Assembly (NCBI RefSeq): GCF_000377945.1
Contig: NZ_KB898952.1
Location: forward strand, 1 to 34,708
DNA length: 34,708 nucleotides
Direction of reading: 5' to 3'
Origin: Thioalkalivibrio sulfidiphilus
GTDB lineage: Bacteria; Pseudomonadota; Gammaproteobacteria; Ectothiorhodospirales; Ectothiorhodospiraceae
A program made the position numbers and the translations under genes. The notes beneath the pieces are model-generated. The model was not told where the DNA came from. It saw nothing but the letters and a program-made list of their open reading frames with translations, and did not search any database. Positions 12,036 through 34,310 of this stretch are shown here, in pieces. Numbering within the stretch: the first letter of the stretch is position 1; every line of letters begins with the position of its first letter.

Positions 12036-12045
12036 TGGAAGGTCA

Positions 12046-12148
12046 AAGGCCTTCAACGCAGAGGCGCAAAGGCGCAAAGGACGCGAAGAAGATCTTTTGA
12101 TAAAAAATCTTTGCGACCCTCTGCGTCTTTGCGCCTTTGCGTCGAAGT
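12046..12148. repeat. Octamer palindrome, ACGCAAAG family, copy 3
   Basis: It starts about ten bases after the copA stop codon. The arm CTTCAACGCAGAGGCGCAAAG (here at 12051-12071) pairs, with two mismatches, with the segment ending at 12146. GGCGCAAA units repeat every 8 nt, and the AGATCTT core lies between the arms. It fills most of the copA-cueR gap. Confidence 0.8.
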
Positions 12149-12176
12149 TTTTTCGTCTGATCCCGAAGGAGTATCC

Positions 12177-12575
12177 ATGAACATCGGTGAAGCGGCCAGC
12201 GCATCCGGGGTGTCGGCGAAGATGATCCGCTACTACGAGCAGATCGGGCTGTTGCCCGAGGCGAGGCGCGGTGCCAACGGTTACCGGCACTACGCCGACA
12301 CGGATGTGCACATGCTGCGCTTCATCCGCCGTGCCCGGGACCTGGGCTTCTCCCTGGAACAGGTGGAGCAGCTGGTGGCCCTGTGGCGGGACCAGCACCG
12401 GGCCAGCGCGGAGGTGAGGGCCATTGCCCAGGCACACCTGCGCGAACTGGAGGAGAAGATCGCTGACCTGGAATCCATGCGCCGCACCCTGCAGCACCTG
12501 ATCCAAGAATGCCAGGGCGATCAGCGGGCATCCTGCCCGATCCTCGATGACCTGGCGGGGGCATCCGGCAGGTAG
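12177..12575 (+). CDS. cueR: Copper-responsive MerR-family regulator CueR
   Basis: A 132-residue MerR-family activator. The N-terminal HTH reads MNIGEAASASGVSAKMIRYY, followed by the wing and a long dimerisation helix (about residues 75-108). The metal-binding loop near the C-terminus is C-QGDQRAS-C followed by PILDDLAG, the two-cysteine Cu(I) site characteristic of CueR. The ATG at 12177 has GAAGGAG just before it; an upstream in-frame ATG at 12111 would only translate the repeat. The protein should bind the 19-bp-spacer promoter at 9492 and switch on copA when Cu(I) is present. Confidence 0.95.
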   Translation: MNIGEAASASGVSAKMIRYYEQIGLLPEARRGANGYRHYADTDVHMLRFIRRARDLGFSLEQVEQLVALWRDQHRASAEVRAIAQAHLRELEEKIADLESMRRTLQHLIQECQGDQRASCPILDDLAGASGR

Positions 12576-18401: not shown

Positions 18402-21400
18402 TCAGCGTTCCCGACGGTAGATCAGGTCCATGCTCTGGGCCTCGCCGCTGGTGGTGGTCTCCAGGCTCAGGCTGCGGGTGAGGGTGTAGCGCAGCATGAG
18501 GCTGGAGGCCCGCTCGAAGAGGCCCACGCTGTAGCGCACGTACAGCCGGGCGGTGAGGTACTTGCCCATCATCAGGGCGCTCTGGTCCAGGTCGCCCTCG
18601 GCGTCCACGGTGAATTCGTCCAGGCCCACGGCCTGGCCGATCTGCTGGGTCATCATGCCGCCCTGTTCCAGGCCGAAACTGGTGATGGCGGCGGCGAGCA
18701 CGTTGGCATCCGACTCCGAGGCCCCGGACAGGGGGCGGCCGGTGAGCAGGAAGGACATGGCCTCGCTGTCCTCCATGGCCGGGGTGGAGAATACCCGCGA
18801 GCGCGGGTCCTGCAGGGTGCCGCCGATGGCGAGGCCCGCGGTGACGTCGTGGGCGGGCACCCGGCGCACGGCGCGGATGTCCAGGCCCGGATTGTCCGCC
18901 GGCCCCTGGAACACCAGCACGCCCCGCTCCACGATCAGGTTCTGGCCATAGGCCCGGTAGCGCCCGTCCAGGATACGGATCTCGCCTTCCACCCGGGTGG
19001 GCCGGGCGGGGCTGTCCTCCACGTCCAGCTGCCCTTCCAGGCGGGCGCTCAGGCCGAAGCCGCTCAGGCTCACCTGCTCACCCAGGGTGACGCTGACCCG
19101 GCTGTGGATCTCCAGGGGCGGCTCGGCGGGCGCGTCCGCATCCACGATCACCTCGTCCCGACTCACGGAGACCGCCTGCTCGGGCAGCTCGCGCAGTTCG
19201 ATGCTGGCCTCGGGGACCGCCAGGCTCCCGGTGAGGTGGATCTCCCTGCCGGCCAGGGCCATGGCCAGATCCGGGGAGATGAACACCTGCGCTTCCGGCA
19301 GGCGCAGGGCCTGGAAGCGCTCACCGGCCAGGGTCAGGTTGGCCCAGGGTTCACCGGTCTCGGCGAGCCCCAGCTCACCGCCGAGCCGCAGTTCACCGGG
19401 GCCGGAGCGCACCCGTCCGTCGAGTCGCAGCCGGTCCAGTCCGTCGGCGGCGGCCTGAAGGCTCAGGTCCGTGAGTTCCAGCCCGGCGTCGGGGATGAGC
19501 ATTCGGCCCTCGCTCAGGCTCACGCGGCCGCGGAACTCGGGGTCGGCCAGGGTGCCCGCCAGGGCCAGGTCTGCCTGCAGCCGGCCCCGGGGGTCGCGCA
19601 CCTGGGGGGCGAAGATCTCCAGCCAGCGCAGTTCGGTCAGATCCGCCCGGGCCTGCCCGTCGAGCCGGTGGGTGTTGCCCTCGGGGATGGCCACGAGCCG
19701 GGCGCTGGCCTGGCCCGCATCCAGGAAAGCGAGGGTGGTGCGGGCCTCCAGCCGGCCGTCGTTCAGGCTGGCCGACAGGTTCAGGTCCCGGAACGGGATG
19801 GTCTCGCGATCGCCGTCCGGGAGCAGGACATGCATGAGGGTCTGTGGGGCGCCGGCCTGCAGTTCCACCGAGAGGCTGTCCAGGAGCGCCAGCCGGGCGC
19901 TGGCTTCGATCCGGCCCTCCAGTTCCAGGTTCTCGGGCAGCACGTCGGCGAGCCAGGCCAGGGACAGGTCGTCCAGGTCGAGCCGGGCCTGGAGGCCGGT
20001 TGCCGGTGTGCGTTCCCCCTCGAGACACAGGCGGGCGGCCTCCTGGGTCAGGCACAGGGGCGCGAGTCGGGCGCGCTCGGCATCGGCCTCAAGCGCGGGA
20101 CGGCCGTCCAGGGTCCAGGTGCCCAGGCGGGTCTCGCTCAGGTTGAGCCGGGTGATCCTTCCCGCCCAGCCGGGGGCCTCGGTGAGGCGTCCGCGCAGGC
20201 CCAGGCCCAGGTCCCCCTCGCGGGTGCGCGCGCTCAGATTCAGCTCGTGGGACTCGGCGTGGCCCCGGCCGCTCAGCAGCAGGTTCTCCACCAGGGTGTC
20301 GTCGTCAAGCGAGATGTCGTTGATCACCAGGTTGAGGACCAGGGGTCGTTGCGGCTCGAGTCCGCCCCGGGCCTCCAGGGCCAGGCGCTCCAGTGACCAG
20401 GTCTCGAAGCCCAGTTCCGCCCCTTCCAGCGTCAGGTTCAGATCCGGTCGCTGCCAGTGGCCTGCCAGCCGGCCTTGCCCCGTCAGCCGACCGCGCAGCC
20501 CGGGCCACAGGGCCGATAGCTCCGGGGCGTCCAGGCGGTAGTGCAGGTCGGCGGCGTCCAGGGCCGCCTCGCCGCGCAGCTCCAGGCGGTTGGCGCCCAG
20601 GCGCGCCTCCAGGCCCGGGGTGGTGAGCCGCCGGCCCTCGCTCAGCCGGGCGCTGCCCCGGGCGGACACCGGGTAGTCCCGCAGGCGCCCGTCCAGCCGC
20701 TCCAGCTCAAGACTGGCGGCCGCGCCGGTCTCCGCGTCCAGGCGACCCTCGGTGGCGGCGCGCAGGTTGAGTCGGCCGGCCAGCCGGGGCTCGATCAGGC
20801 CGGGGTCCAGGTCGTCTCCCGTGATGCGCAGGTTCCAGCGCAACTCCGGGGCCCAATGGGCCTCGCCGGTGACCGACAGGCGCGCGGCATCGACTTCCAG
20901 GTGCAGGCCGGGGGTGCTGAGCCCGTGGCCCTGAAGCGCTGCCTCGCCCCGGCCGCTGACGCGGTGGCCGGCCAGCTGGCCCTGCAGGCGGGTCAGGCGC
21001 ACCTCGCCGTGCACGGCGAGATCCGCCTCCAGGCGGCCGGCGGTGCTCAGGTCCAGGTCCAGCCGACCGGGCCAGTCCTCGAGCCAGGGACCCGGGTCCA
21101 GGTCGCGGGCGGCGAGGCGCAGGTCCCAGTGGGGCTGCGGTGCCCAGCCGCCGATGCCCTCCAGGGTGAGGCGCCCGCCATCCACGCTCAGGGTGAGGCC
21201 GGGGGTGCTGAGTTCGGTGTCCCTCAATCGGGCCTCGCCGGTCAGGCGCAGGCTCTCGCCGCGCAGCACGCCGGACAGATCCAGGTCCTGCAGGTCGAGG
21301 CTCAGCAGGCCATCCGCATCCAGTGCGCCGGACACCCGGGTGTCGAGATCCAGGCGCCCGGGCAGTTCGGGGCTGGCCAGGGCCGGGTCCAGATCCCGGC

Positions 21401-22460
21401 CGCTGACCGTCATGTCCCAGGCGGGCAGGGGCAGCCAGCGGGCGCTGCCGGCGATGCCCAGGCGACCCGCCTCACCGCTGATCGCCAGGGACAGTTCGGC
21501 CAGGTGCTCCGCATCGCCCCGGCCGGTGAGTTCGATGCGCTGGGCGGGATAGTCCAGGGGGGTGACGGTGGTGTGCAGTTCCAGGCGATGGTCGTCCAGG
21601 TTGCCGGCGCTCAAAAGACGGCCGGCCTCCACGGCGATGGGCCCCTGCTCCGGGATCTGCCAGGTGAAGGCCTCCCAGCGGTGCTGCAGGTCCCAGGCGG
21701 GGGTGTCCAGGAGGGTCCGAAACTCGCCCTCGCCGCTCAGGCGCAGGGGGGCCTCGATGCCGTGACTCAGGGTCAGGCGCTCCAGGTCCCCCTCGATGCG
21801 GACCCGGCCATGGGCCTCTTCGGCATCGAGTCCGAGCGCCGCCGGCTCGGGCAGGCGCACCCGCCAAGCCAGGTCGGCCTGCATCGGGTAGGGCAGGGCG
21901 AGACCGGCGCTGGCGCTCAGGTCGAGATCGAAGTCGGCGGCGTCCACGGTCAGGGTGCGGATGCGCGCCGCGTCCCGGTCCGCGCTGGCGGCCAGACGGA
22001 TCTCGTGGATCACCAGGGGCTCGGCGTCGCCGAAGCTGAGGCGCAGGTCCGTGAAGCGGGCCGGTGACAGGTCGATGGCCAGGGGCAGGCGGATGGCCTC
22101 GGGGATCTGGAAAGGTTCGGCGGGCGCGGGGTCCGGGTCGGGGCGGGTCTGCAGGTCCAGGCCATGCAGTTCCAGGCGGGTGATGGCGAGCCGGGCGACA
22201 AACAGGGCGTTGGCGTTGACCCGCAGATCCAGGCGCTCAAGGCTCGCGCTCGCGGAGGCATCCTCGAAACGGATACCCTGCAGGGTCACGCCGCGCAGCA
22301 GGGTGCCCTCCACCTGCTCGATACGCAATTCGCCGGGGGCCAGCGCCGACCCCTGCTGGATGACCCAGCGGGTGCCGGGCTCGGTGCCCAGCAGCACCGT
22401 GAGCAGGGTGGCCAGCATGATGAAGGCGACCAGGGCGCCGAACAGGACGCGGCGGAGCAT
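18402..22460 (-). CDS. tamB: Translocation and assembly module subunit TamB
   Basis: A 1352-residue AsmA/TamB-type protein. An N-terminal signal anchor (about residues 5-24) is followed by a long series of repetitive beta-strand segments (LDLDLSTAGRLE, LRLAARDLDPG, SVSGRGEA and the like), consistent with a hydrophobic beta-taco groove crossing the periplasm. The C-terminal DUF490/TamB domain (about 1000-1352) ends with a strand pattern like that of an outer-membrane contact. It works with TamA in outer-membrane protein and phospholipid transport. Its ATG overlaps the tamA stop by 1 nt (TAATG on the minus strand). The length is typical. Internal Leu/Arg/Gly-rich repeats give long spurious frames on the other strand. 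Confidence 0.93.
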   Translation of the reverse strand: MLRRVLFGALVAFIMLATLLTVLLGTEPGTRWVIQQGSALAPGELRIEQVEGTLLRGVTLQGIRFEDASASASLERLDLRVNANALFVARLAITRLELHGLDLQTRPDPDPAPAEPFQIPEAIRLPLAIDLSPARFTDLRLSFGDAEPLVIHEIRLAASADRDAARIRTLTVDAADFDLDLSASAGLALPYPMQADLAWRVRLPEPAALGLDAEEAHGRVRIEGDLERLTLSHGIEAPLRLSGEGEFRTLLDTPAWDLQHRWEAFTWQIPEQGPIAVEAGRLLSAGNLDDHRLELHTTVTPLDYPAQRIELTGRGDAEHLAELSLAISGEAGRLGIAGSARWLPLPAWDMTVSGRDLDPALASPELPGRLDLDTRVSGALDADGLLSLDLQDLDLSGVLRGESLRLTGEARLRDTELSTPGLTLSVDGGRLTLEGIGGWAPQPHWDLRLAARDLDPGPWLEDWPGRLDLDLSTAGRLEADLAVHGEVRLTRLQGQLAGHRVSGRGEAALQGHGLSTPGLHLEVDAARLSVTGEAHWAPELRWNLRITGDDLDPGLIEPRLAGRLNLRAATEGRLDAETGAAASLELERLDGRLRDYPVSARGSARLSEGRRLTTPGLEARLGANRLELRGEAALDAADLHYRLDAPELSALWPGLRGRLTGQGRLAGHWQRPDLNLTLEGAELGFETWSLERLALEARGGLEPQRPLVLNLVINDISLDDDTLVENLLLSGRGHAESHELNLSARTREGDLGLGLRGRLTEAPGWAGRITRLNLSETRLGTWTLDGRPALEADAERARLAPLCLTQEAARLCLEGERTPATGLQARLDLDDLSLAWLADVLPENLELEGRIEASARLALLDSLSVELQAGAPQTLMHVLLPDGDRETIPFRDLNLSASLNDGRLEARTTLAFLDAGQASARLVAIPEGNTHRLDGQARADLTELRWLEIFAPQVRDPRGRLQADLALAGTLADPEFRGRVSLSEGRMLIPDAGLELTDLSLQAAADGLDRLRLDGRVRSGPGELRLGGELGLAETGEPWANLTLAGERFQALRLPEAQVFISPDLAMALAGREIHLTGSLAVPEASIELRELPEQAVSVSRDEVIVDADAPAEPPLEIHSRVSVTLGEQVSLSGFGLSARLEGQLDVEDSPARPTRVEGEIRILDGRYRAYGQNLIVERGVLVFQGPADNPGLDIRAVRRVPAHDVTAGLAIGGTLQDPRSRVFSTPAMEDSEAMSFLLTGRPLSGASESDANVLAAAITSFGLEQGGMMTQQIGQAVGLDEFTVDAEGDLDQSALMMGKYLTARLYVRYSVGLFERASSLMLRYTLTRSLSLETTTSGEAQSMDLIYRRER

Positions 22461-24193
22461 TACAGGTCCGCCCCCATGGTCAGGTGCAGGCGGAAGTTCT
22501 CGTCGCCGTCCACGGGGTGGGCGATGTCCACCCGGATGGGGCCGATGGGCGAGCGCCAGCGAATCCCTAAGCCCACGCCGGTCTTGGGATCGAAGTCATC
22601 GATGCGGTCATAGGCGTTGCCGCTGTCCACGAAGGCGGCCGCGCTCCATTTGCCGAACAGGGGGATCTCGTATTCCACGCTGCCGGTGAGCAGGTGGCGG
22701 CCACCGATGACCTCGCCGTCGGCGTTGGTGGGGCCCAGGCGCTGGTAGCCGTAGCCGCGCACGCTGTTGTCGCCGCCGGCGAAGAAGCGCACCGAGGAGG
22801 GCAGTTCCGTGACCAGGTCCGCCTGGGTGGCGCCGCCCTCGCCGCGGGTGATGAGCCGGCCGGGGCCGAAGGGGGTGATGAGCTTCGCCCGGCCATGGAC
22901 TTGGGCAAAGCTCACCGAGGAGCCCAGGTCCTCATGGGCGCCGCGCACGCCGCCGTACAGGCGCCAGCCCCGTCGCGGGAACACCGGATGATCGGCGCGC
23001 ACCCGGGAGAAGGACAGGCCCGGCATCAGCAGGTCGCTGCGGTCGGTGATGCCGGCCACGGTGTAGTCCTCGCGCTCGTAGACCAGGGAGCGGGTCTCCA
23101 GCCAGCCGGAGTCATGCTGGCGGGTATGGCTCACGCCCAGACCGTAGAGATCGGAGCGCACCGTGTCGGTGTCCTCGGTCTGGTAACGCGCCATGAGGTT
23201 GAGGCGCTCACGGGCCGGTTCCTGCAGGGGGATCTCGTAGTTGAAGCCCACCCCGGAGCGCACCGGAGAGAACTCCATATCGGCGTTGTAGCGGTGCCCG
23301 GATCGGTTGGCATAGCGGTGCTCGTAGCCGAGACGCAGGCGCGGGCCGATGTCCGTGGAGGCGCCGATACCGGCGAGATACGCGTGGCGCGGGCGGGGCG
23401 TAAGCTCCACCCGGATGGGCACGGCACCGTCGGCACGGGCCTCGGTCTCGGTGCGCACGCGAACGTCGCTGAAGTAGTTCCCGTCCACCAGGGCCTGCTG
23501 CAGGTCGATGAGGCGAACGCTGTCGTAGGGCTCTCCTTCCTCGAAGGGCAGGAACTTGTCCACGAACTCGGGCTTGAGGATGTCCTGCTCGATGGTGATG
23601 ATGCCGAAGCGGTAGCGGACGCCGCTGTCCATGTGAATCACCGCGTCGGCCACGCCTTCCCCGGCGTGCACGCGCAGTTCACGGGTGATGATGCGGTTGT
23701 CCAGGTAGCCCCGGTCGGCGGCCAGGCGGGTCAGGCTGTTGCGCAGCTGTTCGTAGCGGTCGTGGCGCAACACGTCGCCGGGTTTCATGGGCGCGTCGGC
23801 CAGCAGTGTCCGGAAGGCGGGATCGTCTCCGGCCTCGCCGTCCAGGGTGACCTCCACCGCGCGCACGCGCACCGGCTCTCCCGGTTGGACGCGGACCTCC
23901 AGGGTCCAGCAGTCCTCGGTGCGGCGGAAGTCCATCTCAAGCTCCGGGCGATAGTAGCCCAGGGCACGCAGGGCCTCGCGGCTCTCATCGTTCGCCCGGC
24001 GCAGCAGCGGGCGCTCCCGCCACGCGGGCAGCTCGCAATCCTCGCGGGCGATGCTCAGGTGAACGCGGATATTGTCCTCGAGCTCAGACCCGACGCCGGT
24101 GATGTTGAGGCGTGGCGACTGTGCCTGGGCCGTGCCGAGCGGCAGGCACGCCAGCAGCATGACCGCCGCGGCAAGGCGGCGCACGGTGCGCAT
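22460..24193 (-). CDS. tamA: Translocation and assembly module subunit TamA
   Basis: A 577-residue Omp85-family outer-membrane protein. A signal peptide (MRTVRRLAAAVMLLACLPLG, cut near AQA at 22-24) is followed by three POTRA domains (about residues 30-270) and a 16-stranded barrel. The barrel carries the family segment RFFAGGDNSVRGYGYQRLGP and the C-terminal GVGLGIRWRSPIGPIRVDIA, and ends in a short strand. The ATG at 24193 is chosen because the signal peptide begins there; a GTG at 24223 would add ten residues, and neither start has a strong ribosome binding site. It is translationally coupled to tamB. Confidence 0.93.
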   Translation of the reverse strand: MRTVRRLAAAVMLLACLPLGTAQAQSPRLNITGVGSELEDNIRVHLSIAREDCELPAWRERPLLRRANDESREALRALGYYRPELEMDFRRTEDCWTLEVRVQPGEPVRVRAVEVTLDGEAGDDPAFRTLLADAPMKPGDVLRHDRYEQLRNSLTRLAADRGYLDNRIITRELRVHAGEGVADAVIHMDSGVRYRFGIITIEQDILKPEFVDKFLPFEEGEPYDSVRLIDLQQALVDGNYFSDVRVRTETEARADGAVPIRVELTPRPRHAYLAGIGASTDIGPRLRLGYEHRYANRSGHRYNADMEFSPVRSGVGFNYEIPLQEPARERLNLMARYQTEDTDTVRSDLYGLGVSHTRQHDSGWLETRSLVYEREDYTVAGITDRSDLLMPGLSFSRVRADHPVFPRRGWRLYGGVRGAHEDLGSSVSFAQVHGRAKLITPFGPGRLITRGEGGATQADLVTELPSSVRFFAGGDNSVRGYGYQRLGPTNADGEVIGGRHLLTGSVEYEIPLFGKWSAAAFVDSGNAYDRIDDFDPKTGVGLGIRWRSPIGPIRVDIAHPVDGDENFRLHLTMGADL

Positions 24194-24316
24194 CTGGTGG
24201 ACAAGATAAAGGGCAAGCGACACTTGGTCTGTATCCAGGGGTGGTCAGGGACTTAGTCAAAGAGTAACAGTTCGCCACTATTTGTCCCCCCCAGGTATCA
24301 GGGGTTCAGATCATCC

Positions 24317-25411: not shown

Positions 25412-26710
25412 TCAGCCGAGGTGTGGATTCACCACCCGCTCGAAGACGTTGTAGTAACGGTTCACCAACTGGCCCTGGGCCTGGCCCGAGGGCGCCGTGG
25501 CGATGCGCCGCGTGATGCGCTGACCGGGGAGGTCCACCACCAGCACCTCGTCGGCGCGACGGTTGGAGACGAAGGCCTTGCGGGAGTCGGCGCTGAAGGT
25601 GGCGTGGCCCATGTGTCCGCCGGTGCCGGCATTCAGGGTGTTGACGATGCGCATCTCGCGCAGGTCCAGGATCGGCAGGCGGGTGTCGCCGTACTGGGTG
25701 AGCAGGGCATAACGGCCGTCAGGCGAGACGTAGGCATGGCCTGCCCCGTTGGCCGTGGAGATCACATGCTTCTCGATGCGCCGGTTCGCGCGGTCGATCA
25801 CCGTGACACTGGTGCCTTCGAAGGGCGAGCCGCCCCGGTTGCAGACCAGGAACTTCGCGCCGTCGTTGCTGAACGAGCCATGGTGGCCCTCCACCCGGGC
25901 CGGGTTTTCCGCTTCACCGTGACTGCATGGCATGCGGATCACCTGGGCACGGGCGCCGGCGGCGGGTCGACGCATGTCGAAGACATGGATTTCGCAGCGG
26001 CTCTCCGCCCCCTTGGGTTCGCCGAATTCCACGGTGACCCACATCTCCCGTCCGTACCAGTCGAAGTAGTGGGGGTTGCCGGTGACGTTCAAAGGTGTGA
26101 CCCGGTAGCCGTCACCGGTGTCGATCACGAACACCCGGTTGTCGGCATAGCTGCCGATGGCAAACAGCCGGCCGTCCGGACTGAAGGAGCCGTGCATGCT
26201 GAAATCGCCGGTGTGAGCGGTATTCTCCACTGGCAGTTCGGCCGTGTGGGCCACCCGGTTGTCGGCGGTGTTGATGAAGGCCACCCGGAAGGCCCGACCA
26301 TCCAGGCCGGAGTGGTTGACCGCCACCAGCCGCCCGTCCGGGGTCACCACCGGATGCTTGGGCCGGTTGCCGGTCTCGACGTTGGTGATGTGGCGCAGGG
26401 AGCGGGCGTCGATCACGCTCACGGCGCGCTGGTCGGCGGCGTTGTTGGCCACGAAGAGCTTGTCGCCGCTCGGCGTCAGCGATCCCAGGGTGCCGCCGCG
26501 ACCGCCGGTCTCGATGGTCGCGGAGACCGCTTCTCTTGCCTCGTCGATGGCCACTACACGGCCATCGCCGCGGCAGGCAAAGGTGATGCCGCCGTGGCCG
26601 GCCGCGCCCGCGCGGCTGCCGATCAGGATCTGGGGGCCCAGGGTCAGGGCGACGGCGCCGAAGCCTGCCGCCCTGAGGAACCTGCGCCTGGATAGGCTGG
26701 TGTCGCTCAT
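25412..26710 (-). CDS. Tat-exported YVTN-type beta-propeller with His-lined blades (candidate metalloprotein)
   Basis: A 432-residue protein with a twin-arginine signal (SRRRFLRAAGFGAVALTLG, residues 7-25) and about seven propeller blades. Five blades share H-x-x-[VF]-[ST]-x-D-[GS]: His119, His173, His277, His325 and His369. A sixth, His214 in NPHYFDWYG, is degenerate, and the first blade has Leu75 at that place. A His at the start of the innermost strand of each blade points into the central channel. This recalls the His ring that holds copper in nitrous oxide reductase and thiocyanate dehydrogenase, but I cannot assign it to either. The start at 26710 has GGAGGAGT before it and overlaps the GTPase stop by 4 nt. 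A cytochrome d1-like domain without heme is another possibility. Confidence 0.8.
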   Translation of the reverse strand: MSDTSLSRRRFLRAAGFGAVALTLGPQILIGSRAGAAGHGGITFACRGDGRVVAIDEAREAVSATIETGGRGGTLGSLTPSGDKLFVANNAADQRAVSVIDARSLRHITNVETGNRPKHPVVTPDGRLVAVNHSGLDGRAFRVAFINTADNRVAHTAELPVENTAHTGDFSMHGSFSPDGRLFAIGSYADNRVFVIDTGDGYRVTPLNVTGNPHYFDWYGREMWVTVEFGEPKGAESRCEIHVFDMRRPAAGARAQVIRMPCSHGEAENPARVEGHHGSFSNDGAKFLVCNRGGSPFEGTSVTVIDRANRRIEKHVISTANGAGHAYVSPDGRYALLTQYGDTRLPILDLREMRIVNTLNAGTGGHMGHATFSADSRKAFVSNRRADEVLVVDLPGQRITRRIATAPSGQAQGQLVNRYYNVFERVVNPHLG

Positions 26711-28176
26711 GGGTACTCCTCCTCTGTCGCAATGGATGGTTCCCGGACGATCGCCCGAGAACCCGTGGTGGTGGGGTGGGCCAGGGTGTCCAGGCAATGC
26801 AGCAGTGTCTGGACCCGCGTCGCATCCATGCCCCGCATGGAGACCGTCGCTCTGGGGATGGCCCAGTGCTCGCACAGGGCGATGACGGGGTGTTCGGCCA
26901 GTTGCGTGAGCAGCAGGTCCACGACCGCCGCGGGTATACCCAGGGTGACCACGGTCGCCTGCGGGCCTGTGGCCAGTTCCCGGGCGAGTGCCATCAGGTG
27001 CCGGTAGCGGTAATCCTCAACCCCCATCACCCTGTTCAGGCCATGGGGGCGCAGATGGGCCAGAGACGGGCACGGGAATCCGGCATCACGCAGAAAGATG
27101 ATCCGCCGTTCCCTGTTCAGCCGGGTGATGACCGCCTCGGCGGCCGCGATCTCGGAGACGGCCTTGCCTTCGATGAAGGCGGCACCCTCGCGCGCGTCAC
27201 CGCCCCCCTCGGGCAACATCTCGGCATCGCCGGCCGGGGCTCGGTCCGGCGGGAGGCAGGATGGCGGCTCCAGATCCACGAGCGGCGCCTGTTCGCCCAT
27301 GGCCACGAGGAAGGCTTCCCGTTCATCGTCAACGGGGTGCAACGTCCATTGTCCGAAGGCGTAATTGACGGCCACAGGCCTGGGGCTCTCGGCCAGCTCG
27401 CAGATGCCCTTGACGCGGAATACCTCCGCCGGCAGCTTGCCGAGGAATTCCAGCAGGTCCCGGCGTCTCCAGAACCCTGCGGGTTTGAAACAGCGTTGGC
27501 CCAGCTTGCGTCCCGAGCCCGGGACATCGGCCTTGCGCGCCGCTGGGAGCTGGTTCGAAAGCAGGTGCAGGAAGCCTTCATCCACCTGCCCCTCACGGCC
27601 CAGGAACACGGGCACACCACTGCGCACATGATTCTCCAGCCAGGTACGGGCGGCGCGCAGGATCTCGGGTTCGACGTCATCGCCGCGGCTCATGACCACG
27701 ATCTGGCTTGCGCGCAGTTGCTCATGGAACACCGGGTCGCGGGCGTTGTGGTCCAGGTGTCGGGGCTCCACCAGCCCGACGATGCCCTCCAGGGCATAAG
27801 CTCCGGTCTCCAGCGCCTCCAGGACCGGGCGGGGGTCCGCGATCCCCGAGCCTTCGATGATCAGCACCCCCGGATCCTGGGTGGCGCGGATGGCCGCCAG
27901 GGCCTCGATCAGCCGGCCGCCGGCACTGCAGCACAGGCAGCCCCCCGCCACCTCCCGCACCGGCAATCCGAGACTGTCCAGGTAGCGGGCGTCGAAGCCC
28001 ACCTCTCCGAAATCGTTGACCAGCAGCATCGGCTGGCGGTCCCTGAGCAGGGGCAGCAGGGTGTTGAGGATGAACGAGGTCTTGCCGCTGCCCAGAAAGC
28101 CAGTCACCAGAATGGCAGGCGTGGGCGGCCGGTCCAGGGGCCTCAGGATGCGGGGCGTGGTGTTGTACTCGGCCAT
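26707..28176 (-). CDS. CobW/COG0523 family GTPase with long C-terminal extension
   Basis: A 489-residue G3E-family GTPase. The P-loop is GFLGSGKT (residues 26-33) and the metal-binding CxCC motif is GCLCC (Cys80, Cys82, Cys83). The usual NKxD guanine motif is replaced by SRGD (MSRGDD, about 169-174). A CobW C-terminal domain (FRVKGICELAESPRPVAVNYAFGQWTLHPV region; quoted only to place it, about 255-284) follows. The remaining 150 or so residues are an extension not seen in most family members (usual length 320-400). The family comprises metallochaperones and metal-insertion factors. The 4-nt overlap with the Tat-exported propeller suggests it loads metal into that protein in the cytoplasm before export. 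A sigma54 promoter at 28206 drives it. Confidence 0.88.
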   Translation of the reverse strand: MAEYNTTPRILRPLDRPPTPAILVTGFLGSGKTSFILNTLLPLLRDRQPMLLVNDFGEVGFDARYLDSLGLPVREVAGGCLCCSAGGRLIEALAAIRATQDPGVLIIEGSGIADPRPVLEALETGAYALEGIVGLVEPRHLDHNARDPVFHEQLRASQIVVMSRGDDVEPEILRAARTWLENHVRSGVPVFLGREGQVDEGFLHLLSNQLPAARKADVPGSGRKLGQRCFKPAGFWRRRDLLEFLGKLPAEVFRVKGICELAESPRPVAVNYAFGQWTLHPVDDEREAFLVAMGEQAPLVDLEPPSCLPPDRAPAGDAEMLPEGGGDAREGAAFIEGKAVSEIAAAEAVITRLNRERRIIFLRDAGFPCPSLAHLRPHGLNRVMGVEDYRYRHLMALARELATGPQATVVTLGIPAAVVDLLLTQLAEHPVIALCEHWAIPRATVSMRGMDATRVQTLLHCLDTLAHPTTTGSRAIVREPSIATEEEYP

Positions 28177-28205: not shown

Positions 28206-28221
28206 TGCAGGATGTGTTCCG
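28206..28221 (-). promoter_or_regulatory. Sigma54 promoter of the GTPase-propeller unit
   Basis: On the minus strand CGGAACACATCCTGCA has GG and GC separated by 10 nt and agrees with the -24/-12 consensus TGGCACG-N4-TTGCA at most of its fixed positions. Transcription would start near 28195, about 20 nt before the GTPase ATG, with ACGGAGGT as ribosome binding site. Confidence 0.7.
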
Positions 28222-28260: not shown

Positions 28261-28311
28261 AGGGGCAAAATGCCCCAGGATGCCTCATTGGGCATGGGGT
28301 GAAATGCCCCA
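28261..28311. promoter_or_regulatory. Paired activator sites upstream of the GTPase promoter
   Basis: Site A is GGGGCA-AAA-TGCCCC (28262-28276, perfect palindrome, centre 28269). Site B is GGGGTG-AAA-TGCCCC (28296-28310, one arm degenerate, centre 28303). The centres are 34 bp apart. They lie about 73 and 107 bp upstream of the predicted start, the usual distance for a sigma54 activator such as the response regulator at 30136. Confidence 0.7.
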
Positions 28312-28340: not shown

Positions 28341-28375
28341 AAAAAAAGCGGGGCGGGATCGTTCGATCCCGCCCC
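28341..28375 (-). terminator. Intrinsic terminator of soxXA
   Basis: On the minus strand an 11-bp stem (GGGGCGGGATC with GATCCCGCCCC, 28350-28360 and 28365-28375) is followed after GC by seven T residues (28347-28341). It lies 45 bases beyond the soxA stop and separates soxXA from the GTPase-propeller unit. Confidence 0.95.
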
Positions 28376-28420
28376 GAGCAGACCCTCGCTGGCGGAGGGG
28401 GTTGGTTGAGGGGTCTGGCT

Positions 28421-29329
28421 TCAGTCCCGGGCGCTGGGCACGGCCACCGGATAGTCATTGGACAGGGCGGTGAGGAACACCTCGATGTCCACGTAGGGCT
28501 GCGCGCCGGGTTTGAGCGGCTGGGTGCCGCCATTGCGGTTGCACTCGGTGAAGCGCACGTGCAGGGACTGCAGCTCGTCCTTGGTCCGGTAGGTGGGCCA
28601 ATGGGCCACGTCGCCGTAGTGGGTGGTGAGCGCCTGGCCGCGCAGCCGCTCGCCCACCAGGGTCACATGGCAGGTGCCGCAGGCCATGTTCATGCGGCCG
28701 GTGCGCAGGTGGAAACGCTCCTGGCCGCGCTCGAAGGCGGCCTTGAGCTCTCCCTGGGTCACGTCGATGCGAATGGGCATGCCGTTGCTGTGACTGGCCA
28801 CGTACACGGACAGTGCGCTGTTGTCATAGCTGCCATGGGCGAGGGTCGCGCCCTGCTGCGCGGCGCAGTGCTCGATCATCATCTCCAGGTTCACCACCTT
28901 GCCCAGTTCGGTATTGAAGTGGGGGTAGTGGTTGGCACGCAGGCCCTTGAGGTTGCCGTCCGAGGCGCCGAGACACCGGGCAAAGCGGTTGTCAGACCCG
29001 TTGAGTTCGGCGAACAGCTCCGCGCCCCGGTCCAGGGCCAGGTGGCCGCCGTGCAGCGAATCGTCGAAGGGCGGGTCCATGAACTTCCAGTTGGTGGTCC
29101 ACTGCAGCGCCTCCGAGGCCACCCGTTCCGGATCGAGTGCGGCGCGATCCTTCCAGTGGGGGTAGGTCTTGGTGTGGTCCTGAGAGACGTGGGGGTTGCT
29201 GCTGTAGCCGCCCTCGGGTTTGGGCGCGTACTGGCGGTAGGGCTGGTCGGCCAGGGCGCTGCCGCACAGGGCAACGGCGAGCCCGGAACCGAGGATCAGG
29301 GTGGTGAGACGGGTGATGCGGGATCTCAT
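28421..29329 (-). CDS. soxA: SoxA, c-type cytochrome subunit of SoxXA
   Basis: A 302-residue periplasmic cytochrome with a signal peptide (residues 7-27, cut after ALA). SoxA with SoxX joins thiosulfate to the carrier SoxYZ. There is one heme site, Cys217-G-T-Cys220-His221. The first heme site of diheme forms is lost; Cys119 and Cys155 remain and probably form a disulfide, as in monoheme SoxA types. Cys263 in TECNRNGG is the likely active-site cysteine that ligates heme through a modified sulfur. The start has AAGGAGTC at a good distance. It follows soxX after a 32-nt gap in the same unit. SoxYZ and SoxB are not in this window. Confidence 0.94.
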   Translation of the reverse strand: MRSRITRLTTLILGSGLAVALCGSALADQPYRQYAPKPEGGYSSNPHVSQDHTKTYPHWKDRAALDPERVASEALQWTTNWKFMDPPFDDSLHGGHLALDRGAELFAELNGSDNRFARCLGASDGNLKGLRANHYPHFNTELGKVVNLEMMIEHCAAQQGATLAHGSYDNSALSVYVASHSNGMPIRIDVTQGELKAAFERGQERFHLRTGRMNMACGTCHVTLVGERLRGQALTTHYGDVAHWPTYRTKDELQSLHVRFTECNRNGGTQPLKPGAQPYVDIEVFLTALSNDYPVAVPSARD

Positions 29330-29361: not shown

Positions 29362-29901
29362 TCAGCGCAGGGTATTGATGAATGCCATGACGTCGCGGAT
29401 CTCCTGCTCGGTCAGGTTGTTCAGAGCCCCGAAAGGTGGCATCACGGTCTCGGGGAACAGCACCCGGGGATCGTGGATCATCTGATAGACGTAGCTCTCG
29501 GGCATGCCCTTGGCCCCGTAGCCGGCGAGGCTGGGTCCGGCGCTGCCGGTCTGGTTGGCGCCGGGAATGGTGTGGCAGGCCACACAGTTGCCCTGACGCA
29601 CGTTGGTGGCGATCTCACGGCCCCGCTCGGCGTTGCCGTTGAGGGGGCCCTGGAAGGTCACGGCGGTGGGCTGGGGAATGCCGCGCTTGTCCTCGTAGCT
29701 CAGGGTGATCCACTGGGTCAGATCACGCCCATGGGCCCGCCACTCGATCTCGCCACTGTTCTGTTTCGGATAGGGCCAGGCGGTCTTCACCTCGAACGAG
29801 GGATTGACCAGGACATCGGCGGGCAGGCCTGGGTCCGCGCTGAGCATCGGGGGCGCGGTGAGGATGGACGCCGCGAGGGCGCACAGCAGGGTCTTGCGCA
29901 T
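29362..29901 (-). CDS. soxX: SoxX, monoheme cytochrome c subunit of SoxXA
   Basis: A 179-residue periplasmic cytochrome c. A signal peptide covers about residues 3-22, and the single heme site is Cys106-V-A-Cys109-His110 in GNCVACHTIPGANQTGSAGP, a segment typical of SoxX. Met154 in ETVMPPFG is the probable axial ligand. It accepts electrons from the SoxA-centred reaction. GGAGGAGATCCC stands directly before the ATG at 29901; the longer frame starting at 30108 would run across the promoter and is rejected. It is the first gene of the soxX-soxA unit and is driven by a near-consensus sigma54 promoter at 29976. Confidence 0.94.
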   Translation of the reverse strand: MRKTLLCALAASILTAPPMLSADPGLPADVLVNPSFEVKTAWPYPKQNSGEIEWRAHGRDLTQWITLSYEDKRGIPQPTAVTFQGPLNGNAERGREIATNVRQGNCVACHTIPGANQTGSAGPSLAGYGAKGMPESYVYQMIHDPRVLFPETVMPPFGALNNLTEQEIRDVMAFINTLR

Positions 29902-29975: not shown

Positions 29976-29991
29976 TGCACTGGCCGTGCCA
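29976..29991 (-). promoter_or_regulatory. Sigma54 promoter of soxXA
   Basis: On the minus strand TGGCACGGCCAGTGCA differs from TGGCACG-N4-TTGCA at a single fixed position and keeps the invariant GG-N10-GC. Transcription would start near 29965, leaving a leader of about 64 nt before soxX. Confidence 0.88.
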
Positions 29992-30066: not shown

Positions 30067-30117
30067 TGGGGTGTGATGCCCGATCGGGTCACGGTGCCGC
30101 TGGGGCATTTTGCCCCA
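30067..30117. promoter_or_regulatory. Paired activator sites upstream of soxX
   Basis: Site C is TGGGGCA-TTT-TGCCCCA (30101-30117, perfect, centre 30109). Site D is TGGGGTG-TGA-TGCCCGA (30067-30083, degenerate, centre 30075). The centres are 34 bp apart, exactly as in the pair at 28261-28311. They lie about 110 and 144 bp upstream of the predicted start, 18 bases past the response-regulator stop codon. Confidence 0.75.
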
Positions 30118-30135: not shown

Positions 30136-31485
30136 TTACTGCCAGGCGCTCAGCTTGCGCAGCAGGGTCTTGTAGTCGATGCCCAGGGTACGGGCCGCCT
30201 GGGCCTTGTTGCCGTCGGCGGCCTTGAGCACGCTGAGGATGTAGTGACGTTCCACCTCGGCCAGGGTGCCGCCGGTGCTGGGGGCCGCGTGCGCCGTGTC
30301 GCCCAGCCAGCCCTGGCCCCCCAGGTTGTGGGGGAAGACCTCCAGGGGCAGGGTGGCGCTGTCCGCGTCGCAGAGGATCACCGCCTGCTCGATGACGTTT
30401 TCCAGTTCGCGCACATTGCCTGGCCAGCCATGGCCCATGAGCGCGCCCACCACCTCCGGGGCGAGGCGCCGCACCCGTGCGCCATGGGCCCGGGCGTAGT
30501 GCTGCAGGAAGTGTTCGGCAAGCTCCGGGATGTCCTCGGCACGTTCGCGCAGCGGCGGCAGGTGCACGTGCAGGACGTTCAGGCGATGGTAGAGGTCGCG
30601 CCGGAAGGTCCCCTGTTCCACGCATCCCTCCAGGGGCTGGTTGCTGGCCGCCAGCAGACGGAAGCTGACCTTGCGTTCCCGGGTGTCGCCCACGGGTCGC
30701 ACCGAACGTTCCTGGAGCACGCGCAACAGCTTGGCCTGCAGCCCCGGGGACATGGCGTTGACCTCATCCAGGAACAGCGCCCCGCCCGAGGCCTCCACCA
30801 GCAGGCCGGGATAGTCCCGGGCCGCGCCGGTGAAGGCGCCGCGCCGGTAGCCGAACAGTTCCGCCTCGGCCAGTTCCTCGGGGATGGCCGCCATGTTCAG
30901 GGCCACGAACGGACCGCGCCCGCCGTGGATGGCCCGCGCCACCAGTTCCTTGCCCGTGCCCGACTCCCCCTCGATGAGCACGTTGGCCTCGGTGTTGCGC
31001 ACCTTGAGCACCCAGGCGCGCAGGCGCTGCATGAGCGCGCCCTGCCCGCGCAGCGCACCCAGGTACGGGTCGGCGGCCTCGGCCCGGCGCGCCGCCTCGG
31101 CGGCCCGGGCGCGCAGCCCGTGGTCACGGGTCAGCTTGGCCAGCATCAGCTCCACCGTCTCCGGGCGGAAGGGTTTGGCCAGGAAGTCGAAGGCGCCGGT
31201 CTTCACCGCCTCCACGGCGTTCTCCAGGCTCGCGTAGGCGCTGACCACGACCACCGGCAGGTCCGGGTCCACCGCCTTGACCCGGCGGATTACCTCGAAG
31301 CCGTCCATGGCGGGCATCATCAGGTCGGTGAGGATCAGGTCGGGCGGTTGGTCGCTCAGCGCGGCGTCGAGTTCGTTGGGGTCCAGGCTGATGCGAACAC
31401 GGAAGTCCCCGGCCGCCTCGATGACCTGGCCGAGCATGCGCGCCACGTCCGGTTCATCCTCGATGATCAATACCTGGGTTGCCAT
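30136..31485 (-). CDS. NtrC-family sigma54-dependent response regulator
   Basis: A 449-residue activator with a receiver domain (residues 1-118; phosphoacceptor Asp54, Lys104 in FLAKPF), an AAA+ domain with Walker A GESGTGKE (173-180), the sigma54-contacting GAFTGA loop (216-221), Walker B ALFLDEV, and a Fis-type HTH (about 424-446, GNKAQAARTLGIDYKTLLRKL). The start at 31485 fits the family; an upstream ATG at 31527 would add 14 residues. No strong ribosome binding site is visible. The kinase at 32497 is the probable partner, and the paired palindromes upstream of soxX and the GTPase gene are the probable targets. From memory, a sigma54 two-component system (TspS-TspR) controls sox genes in Acidithiobacillus caldus, so the role has a precedent. 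Confidence 0.95.
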   Translation of the reverse strand: MATQVLIIEDEPDVARMLGQVIEAAGDFRVRISLDPNELDAALSDQPPDLILTDLMMPAMDGFEVIRRVKAVDPDLPVVVVSAYASLENAVEAVKTGAFDFLAKPFRPETVELMLAKLTRDHGLRARAAEAARRAEAADPYLGALRGQGALMQRLRAWVLKVRNTEANVLIEGESGTGKELVARAIHGGRGPFVALNMAAIPEELAEAELFGYRRGAFTGAARDYPGLLVEASGGALFLDEVNAMSPGLQAKLLRVLQERSVRPVGDTRERKVSFRLLAASNQPLEGCVEQGTFRRDLYHRLNVLHVHLPPLRERAEDIPELAEHFLQHYARAHGARVRRLAPEVVGALMGHGWPGNVRELENVIEQAVILCDADSATLPLEVFPHNLGGQGWLGDTAHAAPSTGGTLAEVERHYILSVLKAADGNKAQAARTLGIDYKTLLRKLSAWQ

Positions 31486-31561
31486 GGGTGACAAGATACT
31501 CGCTGGGGCATCGGAGTTGAAAACCATTTTACCCGCGTCCCATTCCTTGTATCTTCAGGCC

Positions 31562-32524
31562 ATGCAGCGCAGAGACTTTCTCAAGACCTTCGGGGCCCTG
31601 TTGGGGCTGGGTGTCGGCGGCTATGCCTTGGGTGCCAGCCTGCGTCCCGGCGCGCCCGACTGGCGTGCGGCCCTGGACAGCGGCGGCTGCGTGACGCCGG
31701 GCACGGATCTGTCCGCCCTGCGCCGTGTCGCGGCCCAGCGGGCCTCCGGGGCACTGGCCTACCAGGGTACCCATATCCTGACCTACGGCGCCTTCCGCGA
31801 GCTGTCCACCCACTACTCCCGGGACACGGGTGCCGAGTTCATCGTCCACGGCGGCGGCTGCGACGACGGTATCGCAGCCCTTCGTCTGCGCAGTGCCGAT
31901 CTGGGCGGGCTGTGCTGTCCGGTGGAGGGTTCCCGCGCAGAAGGCATGCGTTGGCTGTCCGTGGCAAAGGACATGAAGGTGGTGATCACCCACCCCTCGG
32001 TGGACATCCCGGACGTCTCCCTCGACGCCCTGCGCGATCTGGCCCGGGGCCGGGTGAGCCGATGGGGTGAGCTGGGCGGCGAGGACCGGGCCATCGCGCT
32101 GATCTACCGCGAGCACTGTCCCGATCTGTTCGAGCCGGTGCGTGACATCCTGCTGGCGAATCGTCCGGACTGGTCGCCGCGGGGCATCAGCGTGGACACG
32201 GATCAGCAACTGGTGGATCTGGTGGCCCGTTTCCCCGGTGCGGTGTGCGTGGTGAGCTGGGTGTTCGCCGAGCCGCTGGTGGCGCAAGGTCGCGTCCGGC
32301 TCCTGTCCGTGGACGGGGTGAGTCCGACGCTGGAGGAGGCGGCGGCCGGCCGCTATCCGCTCATGGGTCCGCTGAACGTGGTCCTCGGTGAATGGCGCGC
32401 CGAGGTGATGGAACCCTTCTTCGATTACCTGTACGGCCCCCGGGGTCGCGAGGTCGTGGGCCGGCTGCTGGTACCCGTGAGCGCCGAGGAAGCGGGCTAT
32501 CGCGCCGCAGCCCGCTCGATCTGA
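31562..32524 (+). CDS. Tat-exported PstS-like periplasmic binding protein
   Basis: A 320-residue protein with a twin-arginine signal (MQRRDFLKTFGALLGLGVGG). The remainder resembles the type II periplasmic binding fold of PstS/phosphate-binding proteins: ILTYGAFRELSTHYSRDTG, a ligand-loop region GGGCDDGIAALRLRSADLGG in place of the usual GSGxG, and SRWGEL like the RWND segment. No ABC permease or ATPase is adjacent, so it is more likely a sensor accessory than a transporter part. The ATG at 31562 starts the Tat signal. It diverges from the response regulator gene and its last 28 bases overlap the end of the kinase gene tail to tail. The ligand is unknown; an oxyanion is plausible. Confidence 0.8.
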   Translation: MQRRDFLKTFGALLGLGVGGYALGASLRPGAPDWRAALDSGGCVTPGTDLSALRRVAAQRASGALAYQGTHILTYGAFRELSTHYSRDTGAEFIVHGGGCDDGIAALRLRSADLGGLCCPVEGSRAEGMRWLSVAKDMKVVITHPSVDIPDVSLDALRDLARGRVSRWGELGGEDRAIALIYREHCPDLFEPVRDILLANRPDWSPRGISVDTDQQLVDLVARFPGAVCVVSWVFAEPLVAQGRVRLLSVDGVSPTLEEAAAGRYPLMGPLNVVLGEWRAEVMEPFFDYLYGPRGREVVGRLLVPVSAEEAGYRAAARSI

Positions 32525-34203
32525 TCCACACCGGCACCGCCGACGCCTGGCAGCCACACCCGAACCCGGCCACCTTCACCTGCAGGGATCTCCACCTCGC
32601 CGCCGTGGGCGCGGGCGATGGTCAGGCAACTGGCCAGCCCCAGTCCCGTGCCGCCATGCTTGGTGGTGAAGAAGGGTTCGAATAGGTGGCTGCGTGCCTC
32701 CGGCGTGAAGCCCGGCCCGCGGTCCTGCAGCTCCAGCCAGACCTTGTCCTGTGCTGTCCCCAGGGTCAGGGTGATGGTCTCGCCGGGCGCGGCCTGGGCG
32801 GCGTTGTCGAGCAGGTTGTCCAGCATCTGTTCCAGCAGAAAGGGATCGGCGCTCACCGTCAGCGCCTCCTCAGGTTGGTGGCAGTCGAGGCGCGTGCCGT
32901 CCTCGCGGCGGCGCTGCCAGCGTTGCGCGATCTCCCGGCAGGCTCGGCGCAGGTCCAGGACCTGTAGCCTGGGTTTGACGGGCCGGCCGTATTCCAGCAG
33001 GTTCTCCACCGTGCGCATGCAGCGCTCGCAGTGATGCTCGATCAGGTCCAGGTACTCGTTGGACTCGGGGGCGGCGCGTCGCTTGAGCATGGCGGCGGCG
33101 CTATGGATGACGCTTAGGGGGTTGTTGATGTCGTGGGCCACCCGGGCGGCGACCCGCCCGATGGCCGAGAGCTGTTCTTCATGGCGCAGGCGGCGTTCCA
33201 TGTCACGCAGGCGGGACAGGCCTTCCACCATGCGATTGAAGTCGCGCACCAGCAGGCCCAGTTCGCCTCGCCCGGCCGAGCTCGGCAGGCGTCGCGTGAA
33301 GTCGCCGCTGCCCACGGCGGTGATGGCCGTGGACAGGGCCATCACCGGACGCATCTGCCAGCGCAGCACCAGGGCCAGGACCGCCGCCAGCAGCACGGCG
33401 GAGACGGCCAGGATCACGGCCAGCAGGCGCTTGACCTCCCGCAGGGCGTGGGCCACGGAGTCGGGCACGATCACGTCCAGCGCAGGCAGGGCGTCGCCGC
33501 CCGAGCCGGGCAGTGTCAGGCGCAGGTGTCCTTCCGCAACCGCCCCGGGAAGCGCGGTGCGGATCTGTGCGGGGTAGGTCTGCTCCAGTCCCCGCAGCAG
33601 TTGTTCCAGGGGCTCGGCGATCACCAGCCAGGCGAGCAGGTTCGAGTTGTGTTCCAGGGGGGCCTGTGCGATCAGCCAGAGGGTGTCCCCCACCCGGCGC
33701 AGCTCGGTCTCCGCTGGCCGCAGCCCACCCGCCGGATCGCTGGGACGCAGGATTCCGGCCTGGTCTTCCCGGGTCGAGACGATGGCAGCGCCCTCGGCTG
33801 ACCACAGGGCGATGGCCTCGGTCTGGAAGGCGCGGGACATGCGCGTGATGGCCGCATGGGGGTGGTCGCGTTCTCCTTCCAGGTACAGATGGTAGTAGGT
33901 ACTGGCGTTGAGGTCCGCATCGTTGACCAGCAGGGCGGCCAGGTTGCCCAACCGGGTACGCTCGCGCTCGATGCCCTGGCGCACCTGCGCGGCGATGCGT
34001 TCCACGCGCTCCTGATGCAGGGCCTCGAACTGGCGGCTGACCTGGTGATCGATGCCCACGAACAGGGCGACGCTGATCAGGGTGGTGCTCAACAGTACGC
34101 CCAGGATCATGCGAAACAACAGGGAGTGCACCCAGGGGACCGGTGCACGGCGTTCGCCGCTGTGATGAATGGGGGACAGGGACTCCGAAGCAAGCGTGTT
34201 CAT
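32497..34203 (-). CDS. Membrane sensor histidine kinase (NtrB-type)
   Basis: A 568-residue kinase. TM1 (about 28-50) and TM2 (about 259-281) enclose a 200-residue periplasmic sensor region, probably a double-CACHE fold. A HAMP domain (about 282-335) is followed by the dimerisation helix with phosphoacceptor His357 in ARVAHDINNPLSVIHS and the ATP-binding domain (N-box DNLLDNAAQA, G boxes DRGPGF and GGTGLGL). HDINNPL and the overall layout match kinases that pair with NtrC-type regulators. The ATG at 34203 is chosen over a TTG at 34236. Its 3' end overlaps the binding-protein gene by 28 bp, and the regulator gene follows beyond that on the same strand. Confidence 0.93.
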   Translation of the reverse strand: MNTLASESLSPIHHSGERRAPVPWVHSLLFRMILGVLLSTTLISVALFVGIDHQVSRQFEALHQERVERIAAQVRQGIERERTRLGNLAALLVNDADLNASTYYHLYLEGERDHPHAAITRMSRAFQTEAIALWSAEGAAIVSTREDQAGILRPSDPAGGLRPAETELRRVGDTLWLIAQAPLEHNSNLLAWLVIAEPLEQLLRGLEQTYPAQIRTALPGAVAEGHLRLTLPGSGGDALPALDVIVPDSVAHALREVKRLLAVILAVSAVLLAAVLALVLRWQMRPVMALSTAITAVGSGDFTRRLPSSAGRGELGLLVRDFNRMVEGLSRLRDMERRLRHEEQLSAIGRVAARVAHDINNPLSVIHSAAAMLKRRAAPESNEYLDLIEHHCERCMRTVENLLEYGRPVKPRLQVLDLRRACREIAQRWQRRREDGTRLDCHQPEEALTVSADPFLLEQMLDNLLDNAAQAAPGETITLTLGTAQDKVWLELQDRGPGFTPEARSHLFEPFFTTKHGGTGLGLASCLTIARAHGGEVEIPAGEGGRVRVWLPGVGGAGVDQIERAAAR

Positions 34204-34310
34204 GACGAGGCGTCCGGCTTGAATGTCTCCAGCCAAGGTATGCCTTGATACGCCGCCGGGGCAAGGGTGAAGTGATAAGTGGCTTTACACAGCTAGTGGC
34301 TAGGGAAAAG

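Follow-up and report, generated by a model that had tools for sequence, protein, structure and literature searches.

What does a histidine-lined beta-propeller protein do next to the thiosulfate-oxidation genes soxXA, and why is its gene paired with that of a COG0523 nucleoside triphosphatase (NTPase)? The question is raised by a stretch of Thioalkalivibrio sulfidiphilus DNA (assembly GCF_000377945.1, contig NZ_KB898952.1, positions 1-34,708), here called the window for its whole length of 34,708 nucleotides. A sequence-only reading had picked out the pair as a possible new metalloenzyme system, perhaps with copper in the channel of a propeller exported by twin-arginine translocation (Tat). 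We confirmed the observation itself (a His-lined Tat-type propeller, a COG0523 partner and sites shared with soxXA), and the overall interpretation was partly supported. Tentatively, and with confidence just short of even, sequence and structural model lead us to propose that the dedicated NTPase would load a divalent metal into the His ring of the propeller, which would then be exported by Tat and serve alongside thiosulfate oxidation by Sox. The propeller belongs to branch B of a family with two branches, A and B. Its residues are numbered from the ATG start at 26710, and the pair is laid out as follows.

25412..26710, minus strand: Tat-type eight-bladed beta-propeller of branch B, 432 residues, with predicted channel His 119, 173, 214, 276, 277, 325 and 369
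26707..28176, minus strand: COG0523 (G3E) NTPase, 489 residues, with P-loop GFLGSGKT, CLCC motif, CobW_C and an extra C-terminal region of about 190 residues that no Pfam model matches
26707..26710, minus strand: ATGA, the 4-bp overlap of NTPase stop and propeller start

An AlphaFold2 model of the propeller, built with 45 aligned relatives, reached a mean predicted local distance difference test score of 89.3, and its strands form eight blades, seven of them four-stranded and one closed by the C-terminal strand. In this model H119, H173, H214, H277, H325 and H369 each sit at or beside the point where the first strand of a blade begins; L75 and the closing strand take the two remaining equivalent places. 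With 17 His among 432 residues, the chance of finding six at eight such places is about 1e-7. The six positions named at the outset (119, 173, 214, 277, 325 and 369) were correct; H214, taken to mark a degenerate blade, is in fact invariant. All 45 relatives (15 of branch B and 30 of branch A) keep H119, H173, H214, H276, H277, H325 and H369, and 44 of them keep H133; His 107, 155, 166, 242, 264, 315 and 430 vary. Most relatives came from a scan whose search patterns included H119 and H276/H277, which inflates the conservation of these three; H173, H214, H325, H369 and H133 are free of this bias. A remote relative (L018, 23% identity) has H173, H214, H276, H277, H325 and H369 and lacks H119. 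Loss of these His in homologues had been named beforehand as grounds for giving up the idea of a metal site, and they are conserved in 45/45. A metal site in the central channel is therefore well supported by the sequences and the model, the invariant first-strand His being joined by the alignment of H119 and H173 with the zinc ligands H124 and H167 of the zinc chaperone AztD.

The fold alone was of little help on function because unrelated propellers reach similar scores: the best structural matches, at Z 32 to 36, comprised cytochrome cd1, NirF and NirN as well as several WD40 propellers and an eight-bladed protein made by design. Pfam likewise described a generic propeller, its Cytochrom_D1, YNCE and Lactonase models passing their cut-offs while matching stretches only, and among NCBIfam models a short YVTN repeat was the sole one over cut-off.

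The evidence for a dedicated partner came from the distribution of the gene pair. An alignment-based scan of genome contigs returned 54 loci, 17 of them in branch B (L060-L075 and L077, 46 to 55% identity to the window propeller) and 37 in branch A (about 32 to 39%). Whole-genome searches added three branch-B loci from Aquificota and two branch-A loci (G380 and G663), so that, with the window, 21 branch-B and 39 branch-A loci were used. Branch B is a clade (support 99/97 in a tree with long-branched outgroups) spread over Aquificota, Thermodesulfobacteriota and Pseudomonadota; one of its assemblies, labelled Acidobacteria, falls within the Aquificota genome set. When the pair was sought in other genomes, as the sequence-only reading had suggested, a COG0523 NTPase gene adjoined the propeller gene in 19/19 testable branch-B loci, testable meaning that the contig continues past the propeller (15/15 scan loci, 3/3 Aquificota loci and the window). 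The NTPase gene lies downstream in 18 loci and upstream in the window only, which indicates that adjacency outlived a change of gene order, and the other neighbours of the pair vary between phyla. No NTPase match was obtained at E 1e-5 in the fetched stretches of the 39 branch-A loci, many of which are on short contigs.

The two partners also diverge in parallel. Median identity was 28% for the NTPases and 52% for the propellers, and their distance matrices correlated with r 0.96 over 18 pairs (0/20000 permutations as high), a value to which shared descent contributes. The branch-B NTPases fell on one side of a branch with support 99/97 in a tree whose outgroup was four rows (two ZigA proteins, a Thermus GTPase and another COG0523 protein of the same genome). 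Membership of the window NTPase in COG0523 was upheld: it exceeds the Pfam cut-offs of cobW (PF02492, 104.5 bits) and CobW_C, and has the cobW G domain, the P-loop and the CxCC motif as CLCC. Its top fold matches were UreG and HypB in a search that covers mainly the G domain. All 13 aligned NTPases extend beyond this at the C-terminus by 143 to 190 residues, an extra region without a Pfam match in the four tested and a possible client-docking domain.

Branch B is found in 7/136 Aquificota genomes, and a propeller of either branch in 5/47 genomes of the family of the window organism. A single-sequence scan of genome contigs and two viral scans gave no propeller relatives, and tblastn of plasmids gave 12 records with a best identity of 29%. 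A related propeller on a Candidatus Manganitrophus plasmid (L096, 5857-7086) stands beside porin and cobalamin-synthesis genes. The record titled Bordetella parapertussis (L025) is a metagenome-assembled genome (MAG) of about 1.7 Mb; the propeller tree places it with Sulfuricella and Hydrogenophilaceae, and its label is probably wrong.

Export signals separate the two branches as well. Tat motifs are (S/T)RRxFLK-like and stand ahead of a hydrophobic stretch. By eye, the N-terminus of the window propeller (SRRRFLRAAGF / SRRRFLRAAGFGAVALTLGP) is Tat-like, as are all 20 readable branch-B N-termini, the window included. In branch A, 4/34 N-termini were judged Tat-like, all from Thermus or Meiothermus; the others resemble Sec or lipoprotein signals, and L026 and L043 have the RR pair without the rest of the motif. 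These counts were taken by eye because an automatic count covered only 19/38 branch-A loci and made errors, with a false positive in L027 (motif before the start) and a false negative in L063 of branch B. Tat-like signals across branch B are in line with the proposed Tat export; the model scores of the window protein fell below cut-off (TIGR01409, 14.6 of 16.7 bits; PF10518, 9.9 of 22.7 bits). The branches differ at residue 366 too, which is His in 15/15 branch-B rows and Arg in 30/30 branch-A rows.

What ties the pair to sulfur oxidation is, in the window, a set of control sites. Upstream of the NTPase gene the features are the following.

28206..28221, minus strand: sigma-54-like promoter of the NTPase-propeller unit (CGGAACACATCCTGCA, GG-N10-GC)
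28262..28276, minus strand: palindromic upstream site GGGGCATTTTGCCCC of the NTPase-propeller unit
28296-28310: second copy of the palindrome, with two mismatches to GGGGCATTTTGCCCC
28349..28376, minus strand: terminator-like hairpin of 12 pairs with a T run, between soxA and the NTPase gene
28421..29329, minus strand: soxA (TIGR04484 over cut-off)
29362..29901, minus strand: soxX (TIGR04485 over cut-off)
29976..29991, minus strand: sigma-54-like promoter of soxX (TGGCACGGCCAGTGCA)
30102..30116, minus strand: palindromic site upstream of soxX, identical in sequence to 28262-28276
30136..31527, minus strand: sigma-54-activating response regulator
31562..32524, plus strand: PstS-like periplasmic binding protein with a start that is Tat-like by eye
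32497..34236, minus strand: sensor histidine kinase, forming a set with the response regulator and binding protein

The claim that the pair has regulatory sites in common with soxXA held. Exact copies of the palindrome precede both the pair and soxX, and sigma-54-like sequences sit between palindromes and genes, the one before the pair fitting the GG-N10-GC pattern less well (12/16 positions, 4 free) than the one before soxX (15/16). An exact GGGGCANNNTGCCCC palindrome lies upstream of the propeller or NTPase gene in 5/5 propeller-bearing genomes of the window's family, with about 0.0007 expected per 1500 bases of window composition. Of three soxX regions examined, those of the window and L034 have the same palindrome upstream and that of L041 a variant of it. 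The exact pattern with any spacer occurs at five places in the window genome, two of them at this locus. With up to two mismatches allowed, the whole window holds 13 copies against 8.6 expected (10/100 shuffles as high, not significant); information comes only from the exact copies and from where they lie. The response regulator is the probable binder of the palindromes. Six further branch-A loci have the set of histidine kinase, response regulator and binding protein close to the propeller; in L041 the response regulator stands alone at the contig end. The hairpin between soxA and the NTPase gene suggests that the pair is probably a transcript of its own, separate from soxA; the scan that found it gave two terminator-like sites in the stretch scanned against 2.2 expected from shuffles. 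As a side observation, the trio with the PstS-like protein may be a sulfur-oxyanion sensor. Elsewhere in the window, neighbouring open reading frames of 1352 and 587 residues (18402-24223) resemble a TamB/TamA pair by eye.

Across genomes, carriers of the propeller are mostly carriers of SoxB. SoxB exceeded its cut-off in 15/17 branch-B genomes (16 with any match) and in 38/42 further carrier genomes (39 with any match), together 53/59 compared with 135/339 genomes in a sample of the window's class (Fisher p 2e-13, uncorrected for kinship). This background comes from one class only, and the window genome is part of it. In two Meiothermus loci a branch-A propeller lies about 5.5 kb from soxXA, amid genes that are sox-like by eye.

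From this evidence a sequence of steps can be proposed. The NTPase would bind a divalent metal at its CxCC motif, meet the folding propeller in the cytoplasm through the extra C-terminal region and pass the metal on to the ring of His. Once loaded, the propeller would leave by Tat and act as a periplasmic metalloprotein that assists Sox-type thiosulfate oxidation. Branch-A proteins may do the same job after being loaded in the periplasm, in several lineages by way of a Zrg (DUF3299-ZrgA-MacB-like) system.

Several points weigh against this proposal. The propeller is rare, being present in 2/369 genomes of the window's class (the window genome included), which, set beside SoxB in 135/339, means that it is not needed for Sox in general. 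SoxB had no match in one branch-B carrier (a Caldimicrobium MAG) and three branch-A carriers. The expected association with Sox stood at the level of genomes, as the SoxB counts show; soxXA itself was seen near the pair in just 2/21 branch-B loci (several contigs are short, and divergent SoxXA may be missed). The exact palindrome was absent from seven other branch-A upstream regions, among which that of L053 is misplaced by a frameshift. The four Tat-like branch-A proteins have no NTPase neighbour. The guanine-specificity motif of G3E NTPases is [NT]KxD; it is degenerate in the window (SRGD), and TKxD or SKxD occurs in 5/18 aligned partners, most of the 18 having lost the usual motif. Finally, the AztD precedent shows that a COG0523-linked propeller with a His channel can be a zinc chaperone rather than a client.

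This last point leads to the alternative that survives best, which we consider possible, if on balance improbable. The propeller would be a distant AztD-like periplasmic zinc buffer or chaperone, with the COG0523 NTPase and the Zrg or Znu proteins as fellow products of zinc-limitation genes, and sulfur oxidisers would need it because sulfide removes zinc from solution. According to passages of PMC6689063, AztD is an eight-bladed zinc chaperone with channel ligands His124, His167 and His218 and with CobW genes as frequent neighbours. H119 and H173 fall on H124 and H167 of AztD when a global profile alignment is forced, and MAFFT pairs them likewise; H214 is on the next blade in order, as is H218. 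Default local hhalign aligned 72 columns with none covering the ligands, and the homology is suggestive only, since the His are placed by the forced and MAFFT alignments alone. Foldseek matched AztD (6n01) with E 3e-12 at rank 40 among many propellers, and AztD was not among the 50 rows of VIA structural matches, an absence that carries no weight. The AztD model NF038015 had no match in the window genome at E 0.01, nor with the propeller at E 1; it gave weak matches far below cut-off in 2/9 genomes searched, and matched 2/185 genomes of the class, none over cut-off. Of the AztD transfer site, H99, H102 and D104 are unmatched in the alignment, and N428 stands in the place of H408. We therefore did not file the propeller as AztD, the model mismatching and the transfer site being absent. 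On a Thermus brockianus plasmid (L100, 3902-6594), AztD-like, DsrE-family and GTP-binding proteins lie near a metal ATP-binding cassette (ABC) binding protein.

Gene neighbours also speak for zinc trafficking in part of the family. In Thioalkalivibrio denitrificans (L041) the slot between soxXA and rimK holds a branch-A propeller gene followed by genes for DUF3299, ZrgA (a zinc uptake protein family in Pfam), an ABC-type ATPase and a permease of the MacB/FtsX kind. The same slot in the window, where rimK is the downstream neighbour of the propeller gene, holds instead the NTPase and a branch-B propeller. The L041 set resembles the Zur-regulated PA4063-PA4066 operon of Pseudomonas aeruginosa, whose PA4066 we take to be the DUF3299 protein. 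Passages of PMC11481552 describe that operon as earlier annotated for zinc uptake and lately read as exporting a cobalt-metallophore complex. In 8/39 branch-A loci DUF3299 is no more than about 1 kb from the propeller, and in a ninth the distance is 2.1 kb; three loci have ZrgA nearby and one has ZnuA. As for the Aquificota pairs, ZnuB and ZnuA adjoin one and lie within about 2 kb of another, and ZnuA is 8 kb from a third. Most branch-B loci were without these zinc-system neighbours, and a Zur-box-like pattern was absent from the window, where the pair has control sites in common with soxXA. It is the exchange of propeller-plus-Zrg for NTPase-plus-propeller in one slot, under soxXA-type control sites, that makes us prefer metal loading of a propeller client over zinc trafficking; we regard the two readings as close.

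The copper centre of the original proposal was not borne out. That the propeller oxidises a sulfur compound at a polynuclear copper centre in its channel, as an enzyme akin to thiocyanate dehydrogenase or nitrous oxide reductase, now seems to us unlikely. Thiocyanate dehydrogenase does have a three-copper centre in a propeller channel (passages of PMC9456337), and a Tat signal and a nearby sigma-54 regulator (passages of PMC6504805). The sequence match of our propeller to its chains is partial and weak (E 2e-4). The enzyme has seven blades, which speaks against this identity, our model having eight. Matches to the model of clade III lactonase-type nitrous oxide reductase were weak as well: NF052460 gave the window propeller 37.6 bits and the best of the family members tested 70 bits, with a cut-off of 700. 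Distant plasmid propellers annotated as cytochrome D1 domain-containing proteins (L095, 7920-8966; L118, 4920-5963) stand in copper-resistance clusters and have some His at the same places, and His-lined propellers may form a wider metal-linked group. No copper gene was among the eight genes scanned around the pair, and the metals of known COG0523 proteins are zinc, iron and cobalt (passages of PMC9164220). Copper was sought less widely than zinc, because the neighbour tally used zinc genes and one copper-ATPase query, whose only match beyond the window's own was in L067. In that locus the related ATPase is about 6 kb from the pair; in the window, a copper-type P-type ATPase-like open reading frame followed by a small MerR-like one (9558-12575, by eye) lies 13 kb away. 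Zinc-system genes beside a minority of the loci, together with the precedent of AztD, make zinc (or some other divalent metal, for instance cobalt) more likely than copper, judging from sequence and analogy.

That the propeller binds a tetrapyrrole, as cytochrome cd1, NirF or NirN would suggest, is highly improbable: these proteins are among the top fold matches (Z 33 to 35) and give weak partial sequence matches, but unrelated WD40 proteins reach the same Z, Cytochrom_D1 is over cut-off in stretches only, no heme-d1 gene was among the eight genes scanned and heme d1 sites are not known to have a six-His ring at one level.

Metal loading of a dedicated client can be taken one step further, into a speculative version that we think rather unlikely as a whole. 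The family would use two metallation routes, cytoplasmic COG0523 loading followed by Tat export in branch B and mostly Sec export with periplasmic, partly Zrg-assisted loading in branch A, and thiosulfate oxidation would have a new metalloenzyme in this client. Residue 366 would then be a possible mark of the switch. Were this version true, the exported client of a COG0523 enzyme would be defined, and the family would offer a natural experiment on how the metal is set by the compartment in which the protein folds. The sister branch without the NTPase allows a direct comparison of cytoplasmic with periplasmic metal loading.

Many COG0523 NTPases are without a known client, and gene-cluster analysis has been proposed for predicting clients (passages of PMC9164220). 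The NTPase-propeller pair is such a prediction, with strong genomic support, and places a candidate metal protein in the setting of Sox-type sulfur oxidation. No report of the pair came up in literature listings on sox and propellers, on COG0523 with Tat, propellers or nitrile hydratase, or on Thioalkalivibrio soxXA, in which subscription journals were sparsely covered; nor do the available passages of a paper on Thioalkalivibrio sulfur genes (PMC6382920) mention the propeller, YncE, zinc or cobW. The presence of COG0523 genes near propellers is not wholly new, having already been noted (passages of PMC6689063 and PMC2770081).

Among known systems, one genomic parallel is COG0523 subfamily 5, which clusters with WD40-repeat genes and znuABC, in passages that do not mention Tat, a His channel or thiosulfate (Haas 2009, PMC2770081). 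Thiocyanate dehydrogenase parallels the predicted properties of the window propeller: it is a propeller enzyme of sulfur oxidisers, leaves by Tat, has metal in its channel and is encoded near a sigma-54 regulator; it is unlike in its seven blades, its three coppers and its weak, partial sequence similarity. Cytochrome cd1, NirF and NirN, among the best structural matches, bind heme d1 and are eight-bladed. Fe-type nitrile hydratase and Nha3 likewise show one COG0523 NTPase dedicated to one metal-enzyme client, although with a fold unrelated to the propeller, iron as the metal and a client that is cytoplasmic. AztD (NF038015; 6n01) resembles the propeller, as predicted, in being exported and eight-bladed, in having CobW/COG0523 genes often nearby and in the two zinc ligands that align with its His. 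The propeller of the window differs from it by six to seven channel His instead of three, by the Sox linkage and by an NTPase that is separate from the two ZigA proteins tested.

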